Source: Psychroserpens mesophilus (GTDB taxonomy: Bacteria > Bacteroidota > Bacteroidia > Flavobacteriales > Flavobacteriaceae). Taken from it: DNA of 64,000 bases. The stretch spans positions 434,001 through 498,000 of the forward strand of contig NZ_JXJP01000008.1 of assembly GCF_000826645.1 (NCBI RefSeq). Reading direction: 5' to 3'. The position numbers were made by a program, and so were the translations under genes. The notes under the pieces were generated by a model that saw nothing but the letters and a program-made list of their open reading frames with translations, made no database searches and was not told the origin of the DNA. Below, one piece after another: positions 3,534 to 24,985 of this stretch (positions are counted from its first letter, which is position 1; each line of letters opens with the position of its first letter).

Positions 3534-4109
3534 ATGAAAAACAACATTTTAAAAACCGGATTTGTCATGATTTTAGCCATGACTATTGCTTCTTTCACAA
3601 CAGTAGCAGAAAAAAGCGTGAACGTAAAAGACAGTAACATAAGCTGGAAAGGCTACAAAGTAACAGGCTCTCACGAAGGCACTATCACGTTATCAAAAGG
3701 AATATTAATGTTCGATGACAACAATAACCTGACAGGTGGGAATTTTACCATGGATATGAGTTCAATTACTGTAACCGACTTAAAAGCTGGTGAAGGAAAA
3801 GAAAAATTAGAAGGACACCTAAAGTCTGATGACTTTTTCGGAGTAAACAACCACAAACAAGCCACTTTTTCTATTAATAAAGTTGATGGCAAAAATGGAA
3901 CATACCGAGTGTATGGCGATTTAACGATTAAAGGAATCACGAAGCCAGCAACTTTTCAAATGATTGTAAAGGACAATATGGCTTCAGCTAGTTTTAAAAT
4001 TGACAGAACTAAATATGATATTAGATATGGTTCTGCAAGTTTCTTTGACGATTTAAAAGACAAAGCCATTTACGACGAATTTGATCTAAATGTAAACCTA
4101 AAGTTTTAA
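3534..4109 (+). CDS. YceI-family periplasmic lipid-binding protein
   Basis: 191 residues from the ATG at 3534, with a clear signal peptide (hydrophobic segment about residues 8-22). An upstream in-frame start would place coding sequence inside the nitroreductase gene and hide the signal peptide, so I reject it. The mature part shows the YceI beta-barrel pattern: SNISWKGYKVTGSHEGTI, the DLKAGEGKEKLEGHLKSDDFF region, and YGDLTIKGITKPATF. YceI proteins bind isoprenoid or other lipid-like molecules in the periplasm. It begins 13 bp after the nitroreductase stop, so it is co-transcribed, and ends at the terminator 4143-4175. Confidence 0.9.
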   Translation: MKNNILKTGFVMILAMTIASFTTVAEKSVNVKDSNISWKGYKVTGSHEGTITLSKGILMFDDNNNLTGGNFTMDMSSITVTDLKAGEGKEKLEGHLKSDDFFGVNNHKQATFSINKVDGKNGTYRVYGDLTIKGITKPATFQMIVKDNMASASFKIDRTKYDIRYGSASFFDDLKDKAIYDEFDLNVNLKF

Positions 4110-4142
4110 CCCTATAACTTGATTAATAGCACATTTAGAACT

Positions 4143-4175
4143 AAAGATTCCCATTCATTTGGGAATCTTTTTTTT
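4143..4175 (+). terminator. Rho-independent terminator after yceI
   Basis: Inverted repeat AAAGATTCCCA / TGGGAATCTTT with a short loop and an eight-T run. It is preceded at 4123-4134 by TTGATTAATAGC, a motif that recurs in front of several other terminators in this window. Confidence 0.85.
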
Positions 4176-4191
4176 ATTTTATAGGAATAAA

Positions 4192-4222
4192 TTTGAATTG
4201 TAATAATTCATTTCTATCTTTG
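4192..4222 (+). promoter_or_regulatory. Promoter of the trp operon
   Basis: TTTG at 4192-4195, a 19-bp spacer, and TATCTTTG at 4215-4222 match the Bacteroidota housekeeping promoter (TTTG / TAnnTTTG) very well. Transcription would start near 4229, just upstream of the leader-peptide ATG at 4238. Confidence 0.7.
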
Positions 4223-4237
4223 AACTTTATAATTATT

Positions 4238-4300
4238 ATGAACATAAATTTAAATCATACTTGGTGGTGGAATTCTCGAAAAGCAATCTTCGTGAACTAA
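4238..4300 (+). CDS. trpL: trp operon leader peptide with three tandem Trp codons
   Basis: A 20-codon reading frame with three consecutive TGG codons at 4262-4270 and a TAA at 4298. It lies between the trp promoter and a strong terminator 72 bp before trpE. This is the classical layout of ribosome-mediated attenuation: when charged Trp-tRNA is scarce the ribosome stalls at the Trp codons. The frame is too short to be a gene by other criteria, but three adjacent codons for the rarest amino acid exactly in front of the Trp operon make chance unlikely. The symbol is by functional analogy with enteric trpL, not by sequence homology. Confidence 0.85.
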   Translation: MNINLNHTWWWNSRKAIFVN

Positions 4301-4361
4301 TCCTATCGTATATTTAAAACAAAATATCAAAAAGGCTTGTCATTCACGACAAGCCTTTTTT
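4290..4361 (+). promoter_or_regulatory. trp attenuator: terminator hairpin with candidate antiterminator pairing
   Basis: The terminator is a perfect 13-bp stem (4329-4341 with 4348-4360), a 6-nt loop and a T run, ending 11 bp before the trpE ATG. A competing helix is possible: TCGTGAA at 4290-4296, inside the last leader codons, complements TTCACGA at 4343-4349, which covers the loop and the first bases of the 3' arm. A ribosome at the stop codon would hide 4290-4296 and allow termination. A ribosome stalled on the Trp codons would leave it free. The terminator is clear; the 7-bp antiterminator is my inference. Confidence 0.75.
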
Positions 4362-4372
4362 AATTTAAAAAA

Positions 4373-5773
4373 ATGAAAACATTCAGCCTTTATACACATT
4401 ACAAGAAAATTTTAGCAGACACCATTACGCCTGTCAGTATCTATCTTAAAATTAGAGATAAATATCCAAATAGTATATTGTTAGAAAGTAGTGACTATCA
4501 TGCTAATGACAATAGTTTTTCTTACATCTGTTTTAATCCAATAGCTTCTATCAAGGTCAACGATGATACCATCGAACAACACTATCCTGATGGAAGCACC
4601 AAAAAGAATTACACTGAAAAAGTTTCTGTAACCGACGAGATTCATAAATTCACAAAGCGTTTTAAAGTGAATTCTGATGAAGATTTCAAATTCATAAACA
4701 ATGGTATATTTGGTTATACAGCTTATGATGCCGTAAAATATTTTGAAGATATTGAGATTAGCAAAAAGCCAAATTCTTTAGAAATTCCTGACATTTATTA
4801 CGCAGTGTATCAAAATATAATTGCCATCAATCATTTTAAAAATGAGGCCTATATTTTTGCTCACTGCTTTGAAACTGAAAATAATATCGAAGAGATTCTT
4901 CAATTAATTAATTCTAAAAACTTTGCTTCTTATACTTTTAAAACAAACTCTAATATTAGTTCTAATCTTACAGATGCTGATTATAAAGATCAAGTTGATT
5001 TAGCAAAAAAACACTGTGCTCGAGGTGATGTCTTCCAATTGGTGTTATCAAAAAAATTCTCACAAGGTTTTAAAGGAGATGAATTTAATGTGTATCGCGC
5101 TTTACGAAGTATTAATCCGTCACCTTACCTTTTCTATTTTGATTATGGTGATTTTAAAATCTTCGGAAGTTCTCCTGAAGCGCAACTTGTAGTGAATAAA
5201 GGACTAGCCGAAATTCACCCAATCGCTGGTACGTTTAAAAGAACTGGAAATGACGAAGAAGATCAAATGCTGGCCAAAAAATTAGCGCAAGATGATAAAG
5301 AAAATGCAGAACATGTCATGTTAGTTGACTTAGCTAGAAACGACTTAAGCAGACATGGCAGTCAGGTTAAAGTAGAAACCTACAGAGAGGCACAATTTTT
5401 TTCTCACGTGATTCACCTTGTTAGTAAAGTCACAGGAAAAGTTCATAACGACACTCCTACGATGCATGTCGTTGCCGACACATTTCCTGCTGGAACCTTA
5501 AGCGGAGCTCCAAAACACAAAGCCATGCAACTCATAGAAAAATATGAGAAGACCAATAGAGCTTTCTATGGAGGCGCAATAGGATTTATGGATTTCGATG
5601 GCAATTACAATCATGCCATTATGATACGAACATTTATGAGTAAAAATCACAAATTGCACTGGCAGGCTGGTGCAGGATTAGTGTCAAAATCCAATCCAGA
5701 ACATGAATTACAAGAAGTGTATAATAAATTAGGTGCTTTAACAAAAGCGATTGAAATGGCTGAAGATATTTAA
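4373..5773 (+). CDS. trpE: Anthranilate synthase component I
   Basis: 466 residues, normal for TrpE. It converts chorismate to anthranilate, with ammonia delivered by TrpG. ILLESS at residues 35-40 is the N-terminal Trp feedback-inhibition motif that separates TrpE from PabB. The chorismate-binding domain contains FYFDYGDFKIFGSSPE, HPIAGTFKRTG, DTFPAGTLSGAPK and GGAIGFMDFDGN. It is the first structural gene after the attenuator. The 197-bp gap to trpG is long for this operon and is filled by two repeat elements. Confidence 0.95.
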   Translation: MKTFSLYTHYKKILADTITPVSIYLKIRDKYPNSILLESSDYHANDNSFSYICFNPIASIKVNDDTIEQHYPDGSTKKNYTEKVSVTDEIHKFTKRFKVNSDEDFKFINNGIFGYTAYDAVKYFEDIEISKKPNSLEIPDIYYAVYQNIIAINHFKNEAYIFAHCFETENNIEEILQLINSKNFASYTFKTNSNISSNLTDADYKDQVDLAKKHCARGDVFQLVLSKKFSQGFKGDEFNVYRALRSINPSPYLFYFDYGDFKIFGSSPEAQLVVNKGLAEIHPIAGTFKRTGNDEEDQMLAKKLAQDDKENAEHVMLVDLARNDLSRHGSQVKVETYREAQFFSHVIHLVSKVTGKVHNDTPTMHVVADTFPAGTLSGAPKHKAMQLIEKYEKTNRAFYGGAIGFMDFDGNYNHAIMIRTFMSKNHKLHWQAGAGLVSKSNPEHELQEVYNKLGALTKAIEMAEDI

Positions 5774-5905: not shown

Positions 5906-5962
5906 TGTCATTCCGCACTTGATGCGGAATCCAACATAAATTAAAACACCTGCTTTCGCAGG
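5906..5962 (+). repeat. Palindromic repeat in the trpE-trpG gap
   Basis: Two hairpins in series. ATTCCGCA / TGCGGAAT (5910-5930) is preceded by GTC, and CCTGC / GCAGG (5949-5962) lies 8 bp before the trpG ATG. The same modules recur at 6542-6609, in trpF, and as single hairpins elsewhere in the window, so this belongs to a mobile-like family of short palindromic elements. Confidence 0.75.
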
Positions 5963-5970
5963 CATAAATT

Positions 5971-6534
5971 ATGAAAGTATTAGTAATAGACAACTACGAC
6001 AGCTTCACTTACAATTTAGTCCATTATTTAGAGGATTTAAACTGCGAAGTAACTGTAAAACGAAACGACAAACTAAGCCTTGAGGAAGTCGATGCTTTTC
6101 AAAAAATTGTACTCTCTCCTGGACCAGGAATTCCTGATGAAGCCGGACTTTTAAAAGCCATCATCAAACGGTATGCACCAACCAAAAGTATTTTAGGTGT
6201 TTGTCTTGGCCAACAAGCTATTGGAGAAGTTTTTGGAGGTTCACTCGTTAATCTTGAAGAGGTATTTCATGGCGTAGCAACACCTGTTGAAATTACGGTA
6301 GATGATGAACCTTTATTCAAAAACATGGATAAAACCATTAGCGTTGGTCGCTACCATTCATGGGTTGTTGACGCAAATTTACCAGAAGTATTAGAAGCTA
6401 CGTCTTTCGATAATAACGGACAAGTCATGTCGTTAAGACATCGGTTTTACGATGTGAAAGGTGTGCAATACCATCCTGAATCGGTATTGACACCAAACGG
6501 AAAACAAATTTTAGAAAATTGGGTGAATAGCTAA
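5971..6534 (+). CDS. trpG: Anthranilate synthase component II (glutamine amidotransferase)
   Basis: 187 residues, a class I glutamine amidotransferase domain. The N-terminus VLVIDNYDSFTYNL is typical, LSPGPGIP forms the oxyanion strand, GVCLGQQAIGE carries the nucleophile Cys78, and GVQYHPES holds His168 and Glu170 of the triad. It supplies ammonia from glutamine to TrpE. Its place between trpE and trpD assigns it to tryptophan synthesis, although such subunits can also serve folate synthesis (PabA). No other amidotransferase partner is present in the window. Confidence 0.93.
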   Translation: MKVLVIDNYDSFTYNLVHYLEDLNCEVTVKRNDKLSLEEVDAFQKIVLSPGPGIPDEAGLLKAIIKRYAPTKSILGVCLGQQAIGEVFGGSLVNLEEVFHGVATPVEITVDDEPLFKNMDKTISVGRYHSWVVDANLPEVLEATSFDNNGQVMSLRHRFYDVKGVQYHPESVLTPNGKQILENWVNS

Positions 6535-6539
6535 CACTA

Positions 6540-6610
6540 TAATTCCGCACTTGATGCGGATCTATTAAAAATGAAGTTAAATTAAAAAGATTTCTGCCTT
6601 CACAGAAATA
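6540..6610 (+). repeat. Palindromic repeat in the trpG-trpD gap
   Basis: ATTCCGCA / TGCGGAT hairpin at 6542-6561 and ATTTCTG / CAGAAAT hairpin at 6590-6609, the latter ending 5 bp before the trpD ATG. It has the same two-module layout as the element at 5906-5962 but a different second arm. Confidence 0.7.
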
Positions 6611-6614
6611 GAAT

Positions 6615-7607
6615 ATGAAACAAATACTCAACAGATTAATAAACCAAGAAAGCATCTCAAGTGAAGAAGCAAAACGTGTCCTGGTTGATATTTCAGATGG
6701 CAAATTCAATCAAAGCCAAATTGCTTCGTTCTTAACCATTTTCATGATGAGAAGTATCACTTTAGAAGAACTGCAAGGCTTTCGAGATGCGTTGTTAGAA
6801 CTTTGCATTCCTGTAGATTTATCAGATTTTAATGCTATTGATTTATGTGGAACAGGAGGCGACGGAAAAGACACCTTTAATATTTCAACATTAGCATCTT
6901 TCGTAACTGCAGGAGCAGGAATTAAAGTCGCAAAACATGGTAATTATGGCGTTTCCTCTTCATCAGGTTCATCCAATGTTATGGAAGCTTTGGGCGTAAA
7001 ATTTACGAATGATGTAGATAAATTAAAACAAACCATTGATAAAGCTGGCATTTGTGTCATGCACGCACCTTTATTTCATCCTGCCATGAAAAACGTTGCG
7101 CCTATCAGAAAAGAATTAGGGGTCAAAACTTTTTTCAACATGTTGGGTCCAATGGTGAATCCATCATTCCCTAAAAATCAAATGGTTGGTGTGTTTAATC
7201 TAGAATTACAGCGCATTTATGGTTACCTCTATCAAAACACAGATAAAAATTACAGTATTGTACACGCCTTAGATGGTTATGATGAAATTTCGCTCACAGG
7301 AAATACAAAAATCATTTCCAATACTACGGAAACCATGCTAAATCCGTCAGACCTCAACGTTCGTCAAATTGAGCAATCACAAATATTTGGTGGTTCAACA
7401 ATTGATGAAGCAGCAAAAATTTTCAAAACTATTATAGATGGTAAAGGAACTGAAGCACAAAACAATGTGGTTTGTGCCAATGCAGGATTAGCGATTGCAA
7501 CAGTAAATACGATTTCGCATCAAGACGGATTTCAATTAGCTAAAGAAAGTCTTGAAAGTGGAAAAGCCAAAGTAAGCTTAGAGAAATTAATTGAATTAAG
7601 TAAATAA
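6615..7607 (+). CDS. trpD: Anthranilate phosphoribosyltransferase
   Basis: 330 residues, full length. It transfers the phosphoribosyl group of PRPP to anthranilate. CGTGGDGKDTFNIST (residues 78-92) is the PRPP-binding signature, KHGNYGVSSSSGSSNVMEALG follows, and FFNMLGPMVNPS is the conserved GPMxNP segment. Its start lies 80 bp after the trpG stop, with a palindromic repeat between. The 121-bp gap to trpC also contains a repeat. Confidence 0.95.
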   Translation: MKQILNRLINQESISSEEAKRVLVDISDGKFNQSQIASFLTIFMMRSITLEELQGFRDALLELCIPVDLSDFNAIDLCGTGGDGKDTFNISTLASFVTAGAGIKVAKHGNYGVSSSSGSSNVMEALGVKFTNDVDKLKQTIDKAGICVMHAPLFHPAMKNVAPIRKELGVKTFFNMLGPMVNPSFPKNQMVGVFNLELQRIYGYLYQNTDKNYSIVHALDGYDEISLTGNTKIISNTTETMLNPSDLNVRQIEQSQIFGGSTIDEAAKIFKTIIDGKGTEAQNNVVCANAGLAIATVNTISHQDGFQLAKESLESGKAKVSLEKLIELSK

Positions 7608-7610
7608 GGA

Positions 7611-7728
7611 ACGTCATGCTGAACTCGTTTATTCATAATTATCTATTTTAAATTAAGGTATTCGTGAATCTTTGATTACAGCATCACACAAAAAATGAGA
7701 ACCTGAAACAAGTTCAGGTTGACGACAA
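7611..7728 (+). repeat. Palindromic element, family B copy 1, abutting the trpC start codon
   Basis: Ends are inverted: CGTCATGCTGAAC at 7612 and TGACG at 7720-7724. The right half holds the hairpin CCTGAA / TTCAGG. The element ends at GACGACAA, directly against the trpC ATG at 7729. An almost identical right half is found before trpA at 10616-10646. Confidence 0.75.
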
Positions 7729-8514
7729 ATGAACATATTAGATAAAATAGTAAATGACAAACGCGTTGAAGTTAATCTTCGGAAACAACTCATTCCTGTG
7801 GAACAATTGGAGCAATCGGTTTTGTTTGAACGTCAAACGGTTTCGCTAGCAAAAAGATTACGTGAAAGCAATACAGGAATTATCGCTGAACACAAACGTC
7901 GCTCACCATCAAAGCAAGTTATCAATCATAATTTGAATGTATTTGATGTTGCTAAAGGTTATGAGAATGCAGGAGTTTGTGGTATGTCTATTCTTACTGA
8001 TGGAAAATATTTCGGTGGAAGCTTAGACGATTTATTAACAGCGCGTTCAAGTTGCAAGTTACCTTTGCTACGAAAAGAGTTTATAATAGATGACTATCAA
8101 ATCCTGGAAGCCAAAGCTTTTGGAGCTGATGCAATTTTGTTAATAGCAGCCATTCTAACTAGGGATGAGATTAAACAATTTTCAGAGTTTGCCAAGCAAT
8201 TACATTTAGATGTATTACTTGAAGTTCATAATGAAAAAGAATTGCATAAATCGATAATGCCAAGTATAGATATGCTAGGTGTCAATAATAGAAATCTGAA
8301 AACATTTGAAGTCAGTTTAGATACGAGCAAGCAATTAAGCGAATTGATTCCAAACGATTTTGTAAAAGTTTCAGAAAGTGGCATTAGCAATAGTGAAGCC
8401 ATCAACATATTACAACCTTATGGTTATAAAGGGTTTTTAATTGGTGAAAATTTCATGAAAACTGTTAATCCAGGAGAAAGTGCTTCTCAATTTATAAAAG
8501 ACTTACTATCATGA
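7729..8514 (+). CDS. trpC: Indole-3-glycerol-phosphate synthase
   Basis: 261 residues, single-domain TrpC (not fused to TrpF). It closes the ring of carboxyphenylaminodeoxyribulose phosphate to indole-3-glycerol phosphate. Visible motifs are IIAEHKRRSPSK, GMSILTDGKYFGGS, LLRKEFIIDDYQ, DAILLIAAIL, LLEVHNEKEL, LGVNNRNLKTF and KVSESGISN, in the usual TIM-barrel order. Its stop overlaps the trpF start by 4 bp (ATGA), the only tight coupling within this operon. Confidence 0.95.
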   Translation: MNILDKIVNDKRVEVNLRKQLIPVEQLEQSVLFERQTVSLAKRLRESNTGIIAEHKRRSPSKQVINHNLNVFDVAKGYENAGVCGMSILTDGKYFGGSLDDLLTARSSCKLPLLRKEFIIDDYQILEAKAFGADAILLIAAILTRDEIKQFSEFAKQLHLDVLLEVHNEKELHKSIMPSIDMLGVNNRNLKTFEVSLDTSKQLSELIPNDFVKVSESGISNSEAINILQPYGYKGFLIGENFMKTVNPGESASQFIKDLLS

Positions 8515-9233
8515 AACTGAAAGTCTGCGGAATGAAATATAAAGACAATATCATTGAAGTCGCAAAGCTACAACCTGATTATTTAGGCTTTATATTCTAT
8601 GAAAAATCAAGTCGTTATTTTGAAGGAATCATTCCAGATGTGCCAAAATCTATAAAAAAAGTTGGTGTGTTCGTAAATGCTTCAATTGAGTACATTTTAG
8701 AAAAAATCATAACTCACAACTTGCAACTGGTTCAACTCCATGGTAATGAAGCTCCTGAGTATTGTAATAAACTTCGAGTTCGTCATTCCGAATTTATTTC
8801 GGAATCTCATCATGAGATTCTGAATCAAGTTCAGAATAACACAGAAAAAAAACCTATCAAACCTAATACCATAGAGATCATTAAAGTATTTAGCATCAAA
8901 GATGATTTTGATTTTTCAAAATTAGAACCTTACGAAGGCGTTTGTGACTACTTTTTATTTGACACCAATGGCAAACTTCCAGGTGGAAATGGATTGACAT
9001 TTAACTGGGACGTTTTTAATGATTATACATCTACCAAACCTTTCTTCTTAAGTGGAGGCATTGGTTTGGATGAAATTGAAAATTTAAAAGGATTTAAAAA
9101 TGTAGTTGCTTCAAAATACTGCCATACCATTGATGTGAACAGTAAATTTGAAATTGAAGCTGGATTAAAAAATATTGAAACATTAGAAGAATTTAAAAAG
9201 CAGTTAGCAAAAATGGATAAGAATGAAATTTAA
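8511..9233 (+). CDS. trpF: Phosphoribosylanthranilate isomerase with an in-frame palindromic-repeat insertion
   Basis: 240 residues, about 20-25 longer than usual TrpF. The TIM-barrel motifs are complete: LKVCGM with catalytic Cys6, DYLGFIFYEKSSRYF, LQLVQLHGNE, YFLFDT with catalytic Asp151, GLTFNW and LSGGIGLDE. Between QLHGNEAPEYCNKLRV and IEIIKVFSI, residues 91 to about 112 (RHSEFISESHHEI and following) are encoded by a palindromic repeat of the family found in the operon spacers. The insertion lies in a surface loop region between barrel elements and keeps the frame, so the enzyme is probably still active. It is coupled to trpC by a 4-bp overlap. Confidence 0.93.
   Translation: MKLKVCGMKYKDNIIEVAKLQPDYLGFIFYEKSSRYFEGIIPDVPKSIKKVGVFVNASIEYILEKIITHNLQLVQLHGNEAPEYCNKLRVRHSEFISESHHEILNQVQNNTEKKPIKPNTIEIIKVFSIKDDFDFSKLEPYEGVCDYFLFDTNGKLPGGNGLTFNWDVFNDYTSTKPFFLSGGIGLDEIENLKGFKNVVASKYCHTIDVNSKFEIEAGLKNIETLEEFKKQLAKMDKNEI
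8781..8842 (+). repeat. Palindromic element translated inside trpF
   Basis: Begins with CGTCATTCCGAA and contains three hairpins in series: 8785-8792 with 8798-8805, 8804-8810 with 8812-8818, and 8818-8824 with 8830-8836. The first and third hairpins resemble the two modules of the intergenic elements at 5906 and 7611. It is read in frame as RHSEFISESHHEILNQVQ and following residues. Confidence 0.85.
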
Positions 9234-9296
9234 AATTAGCCAAAACTCATGTCCTAAATCTATTCGTAGAATTGAAACTTGAAATGCAAAAATAAT

Positions 9297-9325
9297 GAGA
9301 TGCTTCGACTGCGCTCAGAATGACA
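9297..9325 (+). repeat. Short palindromic repeat before trpB
   Basis: GATGCTTCGACTGCGCTCAG followed by AATGACA, 4 bp before the trpB ATG. The TGACA end and the internal GCG-containing inverted segment match the same class of short repeats as those in the other trp spacers, as a half element. Confidence 0.6.
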
Positions 9326-9329
9326 ACAT

Positions 9330-10517
9330 ATGAAAAAGACTTACAACATCAACAAGAAAGGCTACTATGGCGAATTTGGAGGTGCATACATTCCAGAAAT
9401 GCTTTATCCAAACGTAGAAGAATTACGACAAAACTATTTAAAGATAATGGCTGAACCTTCATTTAAAGAAGAATTTGACCACTTATTAAAAGACTATGTT
9501 GGTCGTCCTTCTCCACTCTATTTTGCAAAACGATTGAGTGAAAAATACAACACAAAAATCTATCTCAAACGTGAGGATTTAAATCATACTGGAGCACATA
9601 AAGTCAATAACACCATCGGACAAATTTTAATGGCACAACGATTAGGTAAAACCAGAATCATTGCCGAAACTGGAGCTGGTCAACATGGTGTGGCGACAGC
9701 GACTGTTTGTGCATTAATGGGATTAAAGTGTATTGTATATATGGGAGAAATTGATATCGCTCGTCAAGCACCTAATGTAGCTCGTATGAAAATGTTAGGT
9801 GCAGAAGTTCGTCCAGCTTTATCAGGAAGTCGAACGCTTAAAGATGCTACTAATGAAGCCATTCGTGATTGGATCAATAATCCGGTAGACACCCATTACA
9901 TCATAGGTAGCGTGGTTGGCCCTCATCCTTATCCTGATATGGTTGCTCGTTTTCAAGCGATCGTTTCAGAAGAAATTCAATGGCAACTTAAAGATAAAGA
10001 AGGTACAACAAAACCAGATTATGTGATTGCTTGTGTTGGTGGCGGAAGCAATGCTGCAGGTGCATTTTATCATTATCTCGACGATACAGATGTAAAACTC
10101 ATTGCTGTTGAAGCTGCCGGTAAAGGCATTCATTCTGGTGAAAGTGCTGCTACTTCCGTGTTAGGAAAAGAAGGTATCATTCACGGAAGCAAAACCTTAC
10201 TGATGCAAACTAATGACGGACAAATTACTGAGCCGTATTCTATTTCTGCTGGTTTAGATTATCCTGGTGTTGGTCCAATGCATGCCCATTTGTACACTTC
10301 TGGTCGTGCAGAATTTATCTCGATTACAGATGATGAAGCGATGACTGCTGGTTTAGAACTTAGTCAATTGGAAGGGATTATACCTGCCATCGAAACATCG
10401 CATTCACTGGCCATTTTCAATCAGAAAAAATTTAAAGAAAATGATATCGTAGTCATCAATTTATCTGGTCGTGGTGATAAAGATTTACAAAACTATATCG
10501 ATTATTTTAAATTGTAG
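9330..10517 (+). CDS. trpB: Tryptophan synthase beta chain
   Basis: 395 residues, full-length TrpB1. It condenses indole with serine using pyridoxal phosphate. [12 protein letters not shown] is the typical start, [10 protein letters not shown] contains the PLP lysine Lys91, [10 protein letters not shown] and the phosphate-binding [10 protein letters not shown] are present, and [11 protein letters not shown] and [12 protein letters not shown] follow. It works as an alpha2-beta2 complex with TrpA, encoded downstream. The 136-bp gap to trpA holds an 82-bp repeat and a second palindromic element. Confidence 0.96.
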
Positions 10518-10520
10518 AAT

Positions 10521-10602
10521 TATGGCGTTACCACAAGGGTCAGGCTTTCAAGGCTCGCTATCGAAGATGAGCTCAAACAAACCTTTCAATCCTTAACGCA
10601 AA
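10521..10602 (+). repeat. 82-bp dispersed repeat, family A copy 2
   Basis: Same orientation and length as the copy at 5777-5858, with one difference (CTATCGAAGATG here, CTATCAAAGATG there). It starts 3 bp after the trpB stop, just as copy 1 starts 3 bp after the trpE stop. Confidence 0.85.
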
Positions 10603-10612
10603 ACACAAATAA

Positions 10613-10646
10613 TGTGACCCTGAAACAAGTTCAGGTTGACGACAAG
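10613..10646 (+). repeat. Palindromic element, family B copy 2, before trpA
   Basis: Contains CCTGAAACAAGTTCAGG followed by TTGACGACAA, the same right half as the element before trpC. It ends 7 bp before the trpA ATG. Confidence 0.75.
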
Positions 10647-10653
10647 GATAAGT

Positions 10654-11418
10654 ATGAACAGAATACAACAAAAACTAAAAGAAGACAAAAAACTGCTGTC
10701 CATATATTTTTCAGCAGGATATCCTAATTTAAATGATACGGTTTCTATCATTCAAAATCTCGAAAAAAGTGGCGTCGATATGATAGAAATCGGATTGCCT
10801 TTTAGTGATCCTTTAGCCGATGGGCCAACCATTCAGGCAAGTTCTACGCAAGCTCTAAAAAATGGAATGACTACCGAAATTCTTTTTAATCAGTTAAAAG
10901 ACATTCGTAAATCGGTTTCTATACCATTGATCATTATGGGCTATTTTAATCCGATTCTACAATATGGCGTTGAAGCATTTTGTAAAACATGTCAGGAGAT
11001 AGGTATCGACGGACTCATAATTCCGGATTTACCAGTTGATGTTTACAACGAACAATACAAAGCGACCTTTGAAAAACACGGATTAATCAATGTGTTTTTA
11101 ATTACGCCTCAAACCTCAGTTGATCGTATTAACTTTATTGATTCTATTTCCAACGGTTTTATATATATGGTAAGTTCTGCTAGTGTTACTGGTAGTAATT
11201 CAGGATTTGGAGATGAGCAAACAGCATATTTTAAACGCATTTCAGATATGCATCTTAAAAACCCTCAAATTGTTGGCTTTGGGATTTCAAACAATGAAAC
11301 GTTTACTCAAGCCACACAACATGCAAAAGGTGCCATTATAGGTAGCGCTTTTATTAAACACTTATCACAATTTGGTGTTTCCAAAATTTCAGACTTTGTA
11401 AATACTATTTTAAGATAG
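10654..11418 (+). CDS. trpA: Tryptophan synthase alpha chain
   Basis: 254 residues from the ATG at 10654. An upstream in-frame TTG at 10636 lies inside a repeat element and is rejected. TrpA splits indole-3-glycerol phosphate into indole and glyceraldehyde 3-phosphate. VDMIEIGLPFSDPLADGP carries catalytic Glu45 and Asp56. DGLIIPDLP and GFGISNNE are family motifs, and GAIIGSAF is the phosphate site. It is the last gene of trpEGDCFBA. No clear terminator follows before the small gene at 11514. Confidence 0.95.
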   Translation: MNRIQQKLKEDKKLLSIYFSAGYPNLNDTVSIIQNLEKSGVDMIEIGLPFSDPLADGPTIQASSTQALKNGMTTEILFNQLKDIRKSVSIPLIIMGYFNPILQYGVEAFCKTCQEIGIDGLIIPDLPVDVYNEQYKATFEKHGLINVFLITPQTSVDRINFIDSISNGFIYMVSSASVTGSNSGFGDEQTAYFKRISDMHLKNPQIVGFGISNNETFTQATQHAKGAIIGSAFIKHLSQFGVSKISDFVNTILR

Positions 11419-24858: not shown

Positions 24859-24892
24859 TCTTATAAGTTCTAAAGTTGCGTTAGGGATTGTA

Positions 24893-24985
24893 GCGACATC
24901 CTTTTTGCCATTAAAAGCAAAAAGATATAGCGGAAAGCCCGACCCTCTGAAGCTTTTTTAAGCGAAAGAGGGTAACGCCCAAATT
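24893..24985 (-). repeat. Dispersed repeat, family A, diverged inverted copy
   Basis: On the minus strand it begins GGGCGTTACCCTC, contains GGGTCGGGCTTTCCGCTAT, and ends in a palindromic CTTTTTGC / GCAAAAAG segment. ACCCTC pairs with GAGGGT to give a hairpin. Shared blocks with the copies at 5777 and 10521 are GGCGTTACC, GGGTC-GGCTTTC and CGCTAT. It fills the 133-bp gap between the two Fe-S genes. Confidence 0.75.

Follow-up and report, generated by a model that had tools for sequence, protein, structure and literature searches.

In the enteric trp leader, the antiterminator pairs with the 5' arm of the terminator. The catalogued RNA family Bacteroid-trp (Rfam RF01692) is described as an intrinsic terminator preceded by a short open reading frame (ORF) that contains Trp codons in a row. 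In Table 1 of Weinberg et al. 2010 (PMC2864571) the family is rated likely both as an RNA and as a cis-regulatory element, and a paper of 2019 (PMC6414381) likens the structure of the Bacteroid-Trp RNA to that of the E. coli trp leader and calls the RNA conserved upstream of the trp operon in Flavobacterium psychrophilum. A transcriptome study of 2021 (PMC9723704) likewise deals with leader-peptide attenuation, reporting strong clues for it before amino-acid biosynthesis operons of F. psychrophilum; its passages on this attenuation give no antiterminator, and its main text has no occurrence of trp or tryptophan. Because of these three papers the general attenuator idea is already in print, and a search of the openly accessible literature showed no antiterminator for Bacteroid-trp. 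To a family known since 2010 the present work adds an antiterminator that is specific enough to be tested and that comparison supports in several lineages.

The locus lies in a window of 64,000 nucleotides of Psychroserpens mesophilus DNA ('the window' always means this whole 64-kb stretch) and is an ordinary member of Bacteroid-trp. Its score exceeds the gathering score over the full length of the Rfam model and trp biosynthesis genes follow downstream (Table 1), it possesses the short ORF with consecutive Trp codons and the intrinsic terminator of the family description, and like the family it belongs to the phylum Bacteroidetes. The original prediction presented the system as unrecognised, which has to be given up, as the locus is RF01692, a family that PMC6414381 had already set beside the E. 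coli trp attenuator. Its inventory of parts holds: promoter, 20-codon leader with three Trp codons, terminator and 7-bp complement are all present in the sequence, and the 13-bp terminator stem with its U run ends 11 nt before trpE. The 'complete attenuation system' of that prediction is better worded as a complete-looking ribosome-mediated attenuator, with an antiterminator supported by the swap and covariation tests given below. We put the probability that this member of the Bacteroid-trp family controls the trp operon as a ribosome-mediated transcription attenuator at roughly 0.8.

Table 1. Features of the trp leader and operon, in positions of the window
Feature	Position	Strand	Details
Promoter, Bacteroidetes-type	4193..4222	+	TTG (4193-4195), which we take to be a promoter element, 19 nt, then TATCTTTG (TAnnTTTG) at 4215-4222
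Rfam RF01692 Bacteroid-trp match	4215..4341	+	model positions 1-131 of 131; 58.8 bits, gathering score 49 (cmscan)
Leader peptide ORF, MNINLNHTWWWNSRKAIFVN and stop	4238..4300	+	20 codons, stop codon 4298-4300; read from the sequence
Leader long-range helix, predicted for the ribosome-free state	4249..4318	+	-12.7 kcal/mol; roughly where the Rfam model has its pairs
Three consecutive Trp codons, proposed stall site	4262..4270	+	read from the sequence
Protector hairpin, proposed to mask segment 2	4273..4296	+	4273-4275/4294-4296 and 4277-4280/4289-4292; predicted -4.2 kcal/mol
Segment 2, putative antiterminator strand UCGUGAA	4290..4296	+	last leader codons; swap tests, pair counts, frame counts
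Putative antiterminator target UUCACGA	4343..4349	+	5 nt of terminator loop and 2 nt of 3' arm; swap tests, pair counts, loop sequences
Intrinsic terminator	4329..4361	+	13-bp stem 4329-4341/4348-4360, loop 4342-4347, U run 4356-4361; -17.8 kcal/mol
trpE, anthranilate synthase component I	4373..5773	+	best NCBIfam match TIGR00564 trpE_most, E 4e-131
trpG, trpD, trpC, trpF, trpB, trpA	5971..11418	+	NCBIfam matches; those of trpF all under cut-offs

The TIGR00564 score of trpE (438 bits) is under the curated cut-off of 518, and the closest named TrpE relatives are from Psychroserpens (91% identity). The string TGGTGGTGG of the Trp codons has two occurrences on the + strand of the 64-kb window and none on the - strand. 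The promoter motif TAnnTTTG corresponds to the consensus quoted in PMC6414381. Of 71 loci found by TrpE similarity alone that have a leader, 68 could be scored, and 58 of these have the motif no more than 45 nt ahead of the leader's ATG, against 2.2 expected from shuffles. The leader from 4229 to 4372 folds at -31 kcal/mol (z = -5.1), and none of 200 shuffles was as low. A mechanical hairpin scan listed the terminator stem on the - strand only, because on the + strand its outer A-U pairs use up the U run sought by the scan. Segment 2 and its target are exactly complementary over 7 bp, with the 5' arm contributing 0 nt; since a match as good was found in 81 of 5000 shuffled leaders when the target was the loop plus 3 nt, and in 117 of 5000 with a wider target, the complement is only modestly unlikely in a single sequence, and its weight has to come from relatives.

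Compared with the enteric system, the locus shares with E. coli trpL the Trp codons, a stop codon near segment 2, three alternative structures as predicted here and, in the proposed scheme, the correct sign of regulation. However, the enteric match claimed for it extends to the Trp-codon leader attenuator and not to the contact itself: the stretch named as antiterminator target is complementary to segment 2, but it is not the usual target, as the leader would engage the terminator by its loop and 3' arm, and the enteric leader engages the 5' arm. Of the 19 matches to Rfam models listed for 4100-4500 with a limit of E 10, none is to an enteric trp leader family.

Bacteroid-trp is broadly distributed around this genome. 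It was present in the genome itself and in all 22 genomes searched of the same genus. With an E-value limit of 0.01, it was found in 231 of 299 genomes of the same family (f1) and in 47 of 395 across the phylum; with a limit of 0.05, it was found in two other families, f25 (36/101) and f17 (35/101), and in the order of genome G673 (26/149; hereafter the G673 order). A trp gene lies downstream of 212 of the 221 leaders analysed, two of these (L175 and L198) being counted by a weak TrpB-like match only, at about 30% identity; among the other nine, eight have no ORF of more than 100 aa in the flanking DNA examined. The first gene differs among the groups, being trpE in f1 (131/137, with 6 unassigned), trpB in f25 (29/29, one by a weak match), trpB (13/26, one by a weak match) or trpE (12/26) in the G673 order, and trpD in f17 (26/27). 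Two genomes show a different arrangement, with two Bacteroid-trp matches per trp cluster, all of them sub-threshold (G785, at L319 1627-1772 and 6575-6713, and G803, at L320). Those of G785 stand one before a trpB-like and one before a trpD-like ORF, both named by resemblance.

The original prediction had staked itself on conservation of the Trp codons and terminator in relatives, and this is borne out by loci retrieved through TrpE protein similarity alone, of which 71 out of 80 named ones have a Trp run and a terminator; among the nine remaining, the DNA ahead of the match is no longer than 10 nt in three and is 168 nt long in one. The RF01692 model stops at the 5' arm of the terminator. The loop and 3' arm, with the putative antiterminator target in them, are outside the model, and hence the conservation of the loop and 3' arm is not a product of how the loci were retrieved. 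Among the terminator loops, parsed in 148 of 150 leaders (137 from f1), ATTCAC occurs 65 times, AATCAC and ATCAC 16 times each, and TATCAC and TCAC 9 times each, a sharing that is partly due to relatedness of the leaders. The pairs of the terminator stem are kept in 99.8% of cells in 115 sequences, in which the terminators had been located by pairing.

The pairing between leader and terminator was surveyed in 221 parsed leaders (236 loci less 9 duplicates and the 6 unparsed loci L035, L124, L151, L223, L225 and L227), by taking the best contiguous helix between the leader 3' of the Trp run and the terminator apex, scored as GC 3, AU 2 and GU 1. A helix with a score of at least 15, the threshold set here for a strong one, is present in 194 of the 221 leaders and lacking in 27 (f1 134/137, f25 23/29, G673 order 22/26, f17 14/27, other 1/2). 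The strong helices engage the loop and 3' arm in f1 (132/134), f25 (21/23) and the G673 order (19/22), and those of f17 the 5' arm alone (8) or the 5' arm and loop (6). An apical helix scoring at least 15 is also found in 59 of the 71 TrpE-found loci with Trp run and terminator.

Overall, leaders score better with their own terminators than with exchanged ones. Using the whole hairpin as target, the mean score for own versus permuted partners is 17.21 versus 16.81 in f1, 17.58 versus 15.61 in the G673 order and 17.08 versus 15.40 in all 221 leaders, with 0 of 5000 permutations as high in each case, while neither f25 (750/5000) nor f17 (1033/5000) is significant. In the TrpE-found set the means are 17.61 and 16.25 (0/5000). 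When the target is narrowed to the loop and 6 nt of 3' arm, the permutations reach the native value in 0 of 5000 for f1 and for the G673 order, and in 235 of 5000 for f25. The 5' arm as a general antiterminator target was rejected, as 5000 of 5000 permutations were at least as high over the 221 leaders; with the 5' arm alone no group was significant (f17 1162/5000), and pairing with this arm thus seems to apply only to individual helices of f17 and Pontibacter. A second antiterminator helix to the 5' arm, proposed from the predicted fold of the stalled state, was also discarded: permuted partners did as well in 2580 (f1), 1268 (f25) and 1207 (G673 order) of 3000, and in f1 the value was 8.98 versus 9.74 for shuffled leaders.

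Covariation was assessed in an alignment of 115 leaders, composed of 60 of the 137 from f1 (every second non-redundant leader, with 6 of those omitted by hand), all 55 from f25 and the G673 order, and none from f17. The eight antiterminator pairs form in 88.2% of its cells, six of the eight have changes on both sides, and 69 cells are double changes, compared with 18.0 after shuffling and at most 20 when the strands are slid. Examples of variant pairs are GUCGUGAG with CUCACGAC (L185 and L187), GUCGUAAG with CUUACGAC (L154, L158 and L172), ACCGUGAGU with ACUCACGGU (L203) or with ACUUACGGU (L192), and UUGUGAG with CUCACAA (L191). In L125, GUCGCAAU pairs with AUUGCGAC within a longer match. The other genome retrieved from the same genus (L318) likewise has GUCGCAAU with AUUGCGAC, and because its segment and loop are identical it offers no sister-genome contrast for this double change. 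Its Trp run consists of two TGG codons only. On a TrpB tree of 35 rows (L175, L198 and short proteins left out), the best covarying pair has four leader changes and three loop changes, with G-U intermediates, and two independent pairs fall on supported branches, too few events for the independent-pairs test to reach significance on this tree.

Segment 2 overlaps the end of the leader ORF, and it could in principle have been kept for the leader peptide, for instance as a C-terminal ribosome-pausing motif. Nascent-chain effects are known for other leaders and count for such a reading, as does the fact that in the window segment 2 codes for part of F-V-N. Relative to the Trp codons, however, segment 2 starts in frame 0, 1 and 2 in 65, 32 and 37 of 134 f1 leaders, and it is wholly coding in 40, spans the stop codon in 68 and follows it in 26. 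These frame counts contradict conservation at the peptide level and make a peptide role for segment 2 barely credible; kept in any reading frame, it is conserved as RNA. Relative to the end of segment 2, the stop codon ends at -10 to +5 nt (5th-95th percentile, f1), so that a finishing ribosome would cover segment 2 in most f1 leaders. In f17, segment 2 comes after the stop in 13 of 14 leaders.

The protector hairpin, formed by segment 2 with the stretch 3' of the Trp codons, gives 10.93 for native versus 10.17 for permuted partners in f1 (0/3000). The corresponding counts are weaker in f25 (85/3000) and give no support in the G673 order (834/3000) and f17 (494/3000), and hence the protector is supported in f1 only.

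We infer the ribosome positions, kinetic order, read-through and response to tryptophan as follows. With ample Trp-tRNA, the ribosome would reach the leader stop codon and cover UCGUGAA, the terminator would form and transcription would halt before trpE. When Trp-tRNA is scarce, the ribosome would stall on the Trp codons and cover the protector strand at about 4273-4280, leaving UCGUGAA free to pair with UUCACGA once the loop and the first bases of the 3' arm exit RNA polymerase; this helix would delay the terminator long enough for read-through. If no ribosome is present, the leader would fold upon itself and the terminator would form. Judged from sequence and comparison, the leader most likely switches the trp genes on when tryptophan is short, by way of the tip of the terminator hairpin.

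Folding of the exposed RNA was predicted with and without the ribosome. With a stalled ribosome the mean pair probability of the antiterminator is 0.94-0.96 when RNA is exposed to 4349-4353; from 4355 on the terminator wins at equilibrium in every ribosome state. For a ribosome at the stop codon, segment 2 is under the assumed footprint, which leaves the terminator as the sole option, and the zero for the antiterminator was set by construction, not computed. Without a ribosome the leader's own helix competes, and the predicted value is 0.78 when RNA is exposed to 4349 and 0.22 at 4351; protection is thus not absolute, given the 0.78 at one length. As the terminator wins at equilibrium, antitermination must in this model be kinetic. 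RNA polymerase hides approximately 10-14 nt of RNA; a polymerase on the U run would therefore leave RNA free to about 4350, a length at which the antiterminator is predicted to be preferred.

That the terminator always wins at equilibrium has also been counted for a constitutive terminator, with the promoter alone regulated by an unseen repressor and the leader a relic. Against this stand the presence of Bacteroid-trp in 231 of 299 f1 genomes and the maintained pairing between leader and terminator, and we regard such a relic as very improbable. Another reading is that the UCGUGA/UCACGA complement is not an antiterminator, forming instead a pseudoknotted terminator or a site for binding of a factor, and that stalled ribosomes block termination in some other way. 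As the target adjoins the 3' arm, the lower stem could presumably still form, so that in the model the loop helix could in principle coexist with it as a pseudoknot, and folding gives the terminator as more stable than the antiterminator at equilibrium. However, the score-15 helices of f17 and Pontibacter use the 5' arm, which is the usual antiterminator target, and with the ribosome placed as proposed, segment 2 would be exposed in the stalled state only, for which reason a helix aiding termination would have the wrong regulatory sign. We consider this reading unlikely and retain the antiterminator in what follows.

The part of the hairpin that is contacted varies among groups. In the nine Pontibacter loci of the named TrpE-found set, the leader's helix takes up 6-8 nt of the 5' arm and 2-4 nt of the loop (for example GUGAACAGC with GCUGUUCAC), and f17 is exemplified by UUAGGCA with UGCCUAA (L219), UAUGGCA with UGCCAUA (L226) and GGCAACCU with GGGUUGCC (L038). 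In f1, f25 and the G673 order the helix leans toward the 3' arm. The his leader was compared in the same way. At the hisG locus of the same genome (L317), a leader MTFIQLHHHHFHTSAQAR (to its stop codon) and a terminator precede hisG, and GCUCAAGCG in the leader pairs with CGUUUGAGU, comprising 7 nt of the terminator 5' arm and 2 nt of the loop. A run of at least three His codons together with a terminator is found in 26 of 27 loci retrieved with HisG (L317 and L336-L361); each such leader is on the same strand as hisG, and 188-234 nt separate the end of its terminator from the HisG match. In every one of the 26 the best helix includes part of the 5' arm; it scores at least 16 in 24 of them and 12 in the other two (L338 and L358). 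Against shuffled leaders, 15 of the 26 helices are better at p < 0.05, and with permuted partners the native value is reached in 104 of 3000. No Rfam family was over threshold in the five his loci scanned (L317, L336, L339, L340 and L353).

On balance, we incline to regard Bacteroid-trp as a distinct attenuator design of loop capture, in which the leader takes the apical loop and the descending arm. Its contact point would vary across the phylum as if it had slid through the loop in evolution: f17 and Pontibacter would use the 5' arm, and in f1, f25 and the G673 order the contact would have passed through the loop to the 3' arm. The his leader of the same genomes would use the 5' arm. A trp leader gripping the loop and 3' arm versus a his leader gripping the 5' arm is a natural contrast within one genome, and hence one can ask where, and at what moment, a terminator hairpin has to be gripped to prevent termination.

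A few other features of the genome and the window were observed along the way. The genome (G000, 72 contigs) gave no match to PF00920 (dihydroxy-acid dehydratase), and 14 of 14 control genomes have one; because of this, the organism possibly lacks branched-chain amino-acid synthesis. A Flavo-1 RNA (RF01705) lies at 24870-24948 on the + strand (54.7 bits, threshold 42), an RNA whose function is called unclear in PMC9723704. Short inverted repeats are found at 5907-5965, in the gap between trpE and trpG, and at 7700-7720, in the gap between trpD and trpC. Within trpF (8511-9233), a copy of a palindromic repeat lies in frame at 8782-8840 and encodes about RHSEFISESHHEILNQVQNN. Genome-wide, this repeat was found with at most 3 mismatches at 25 places, the two halves of the trpF copy included, compared with 0 for the reversed control.
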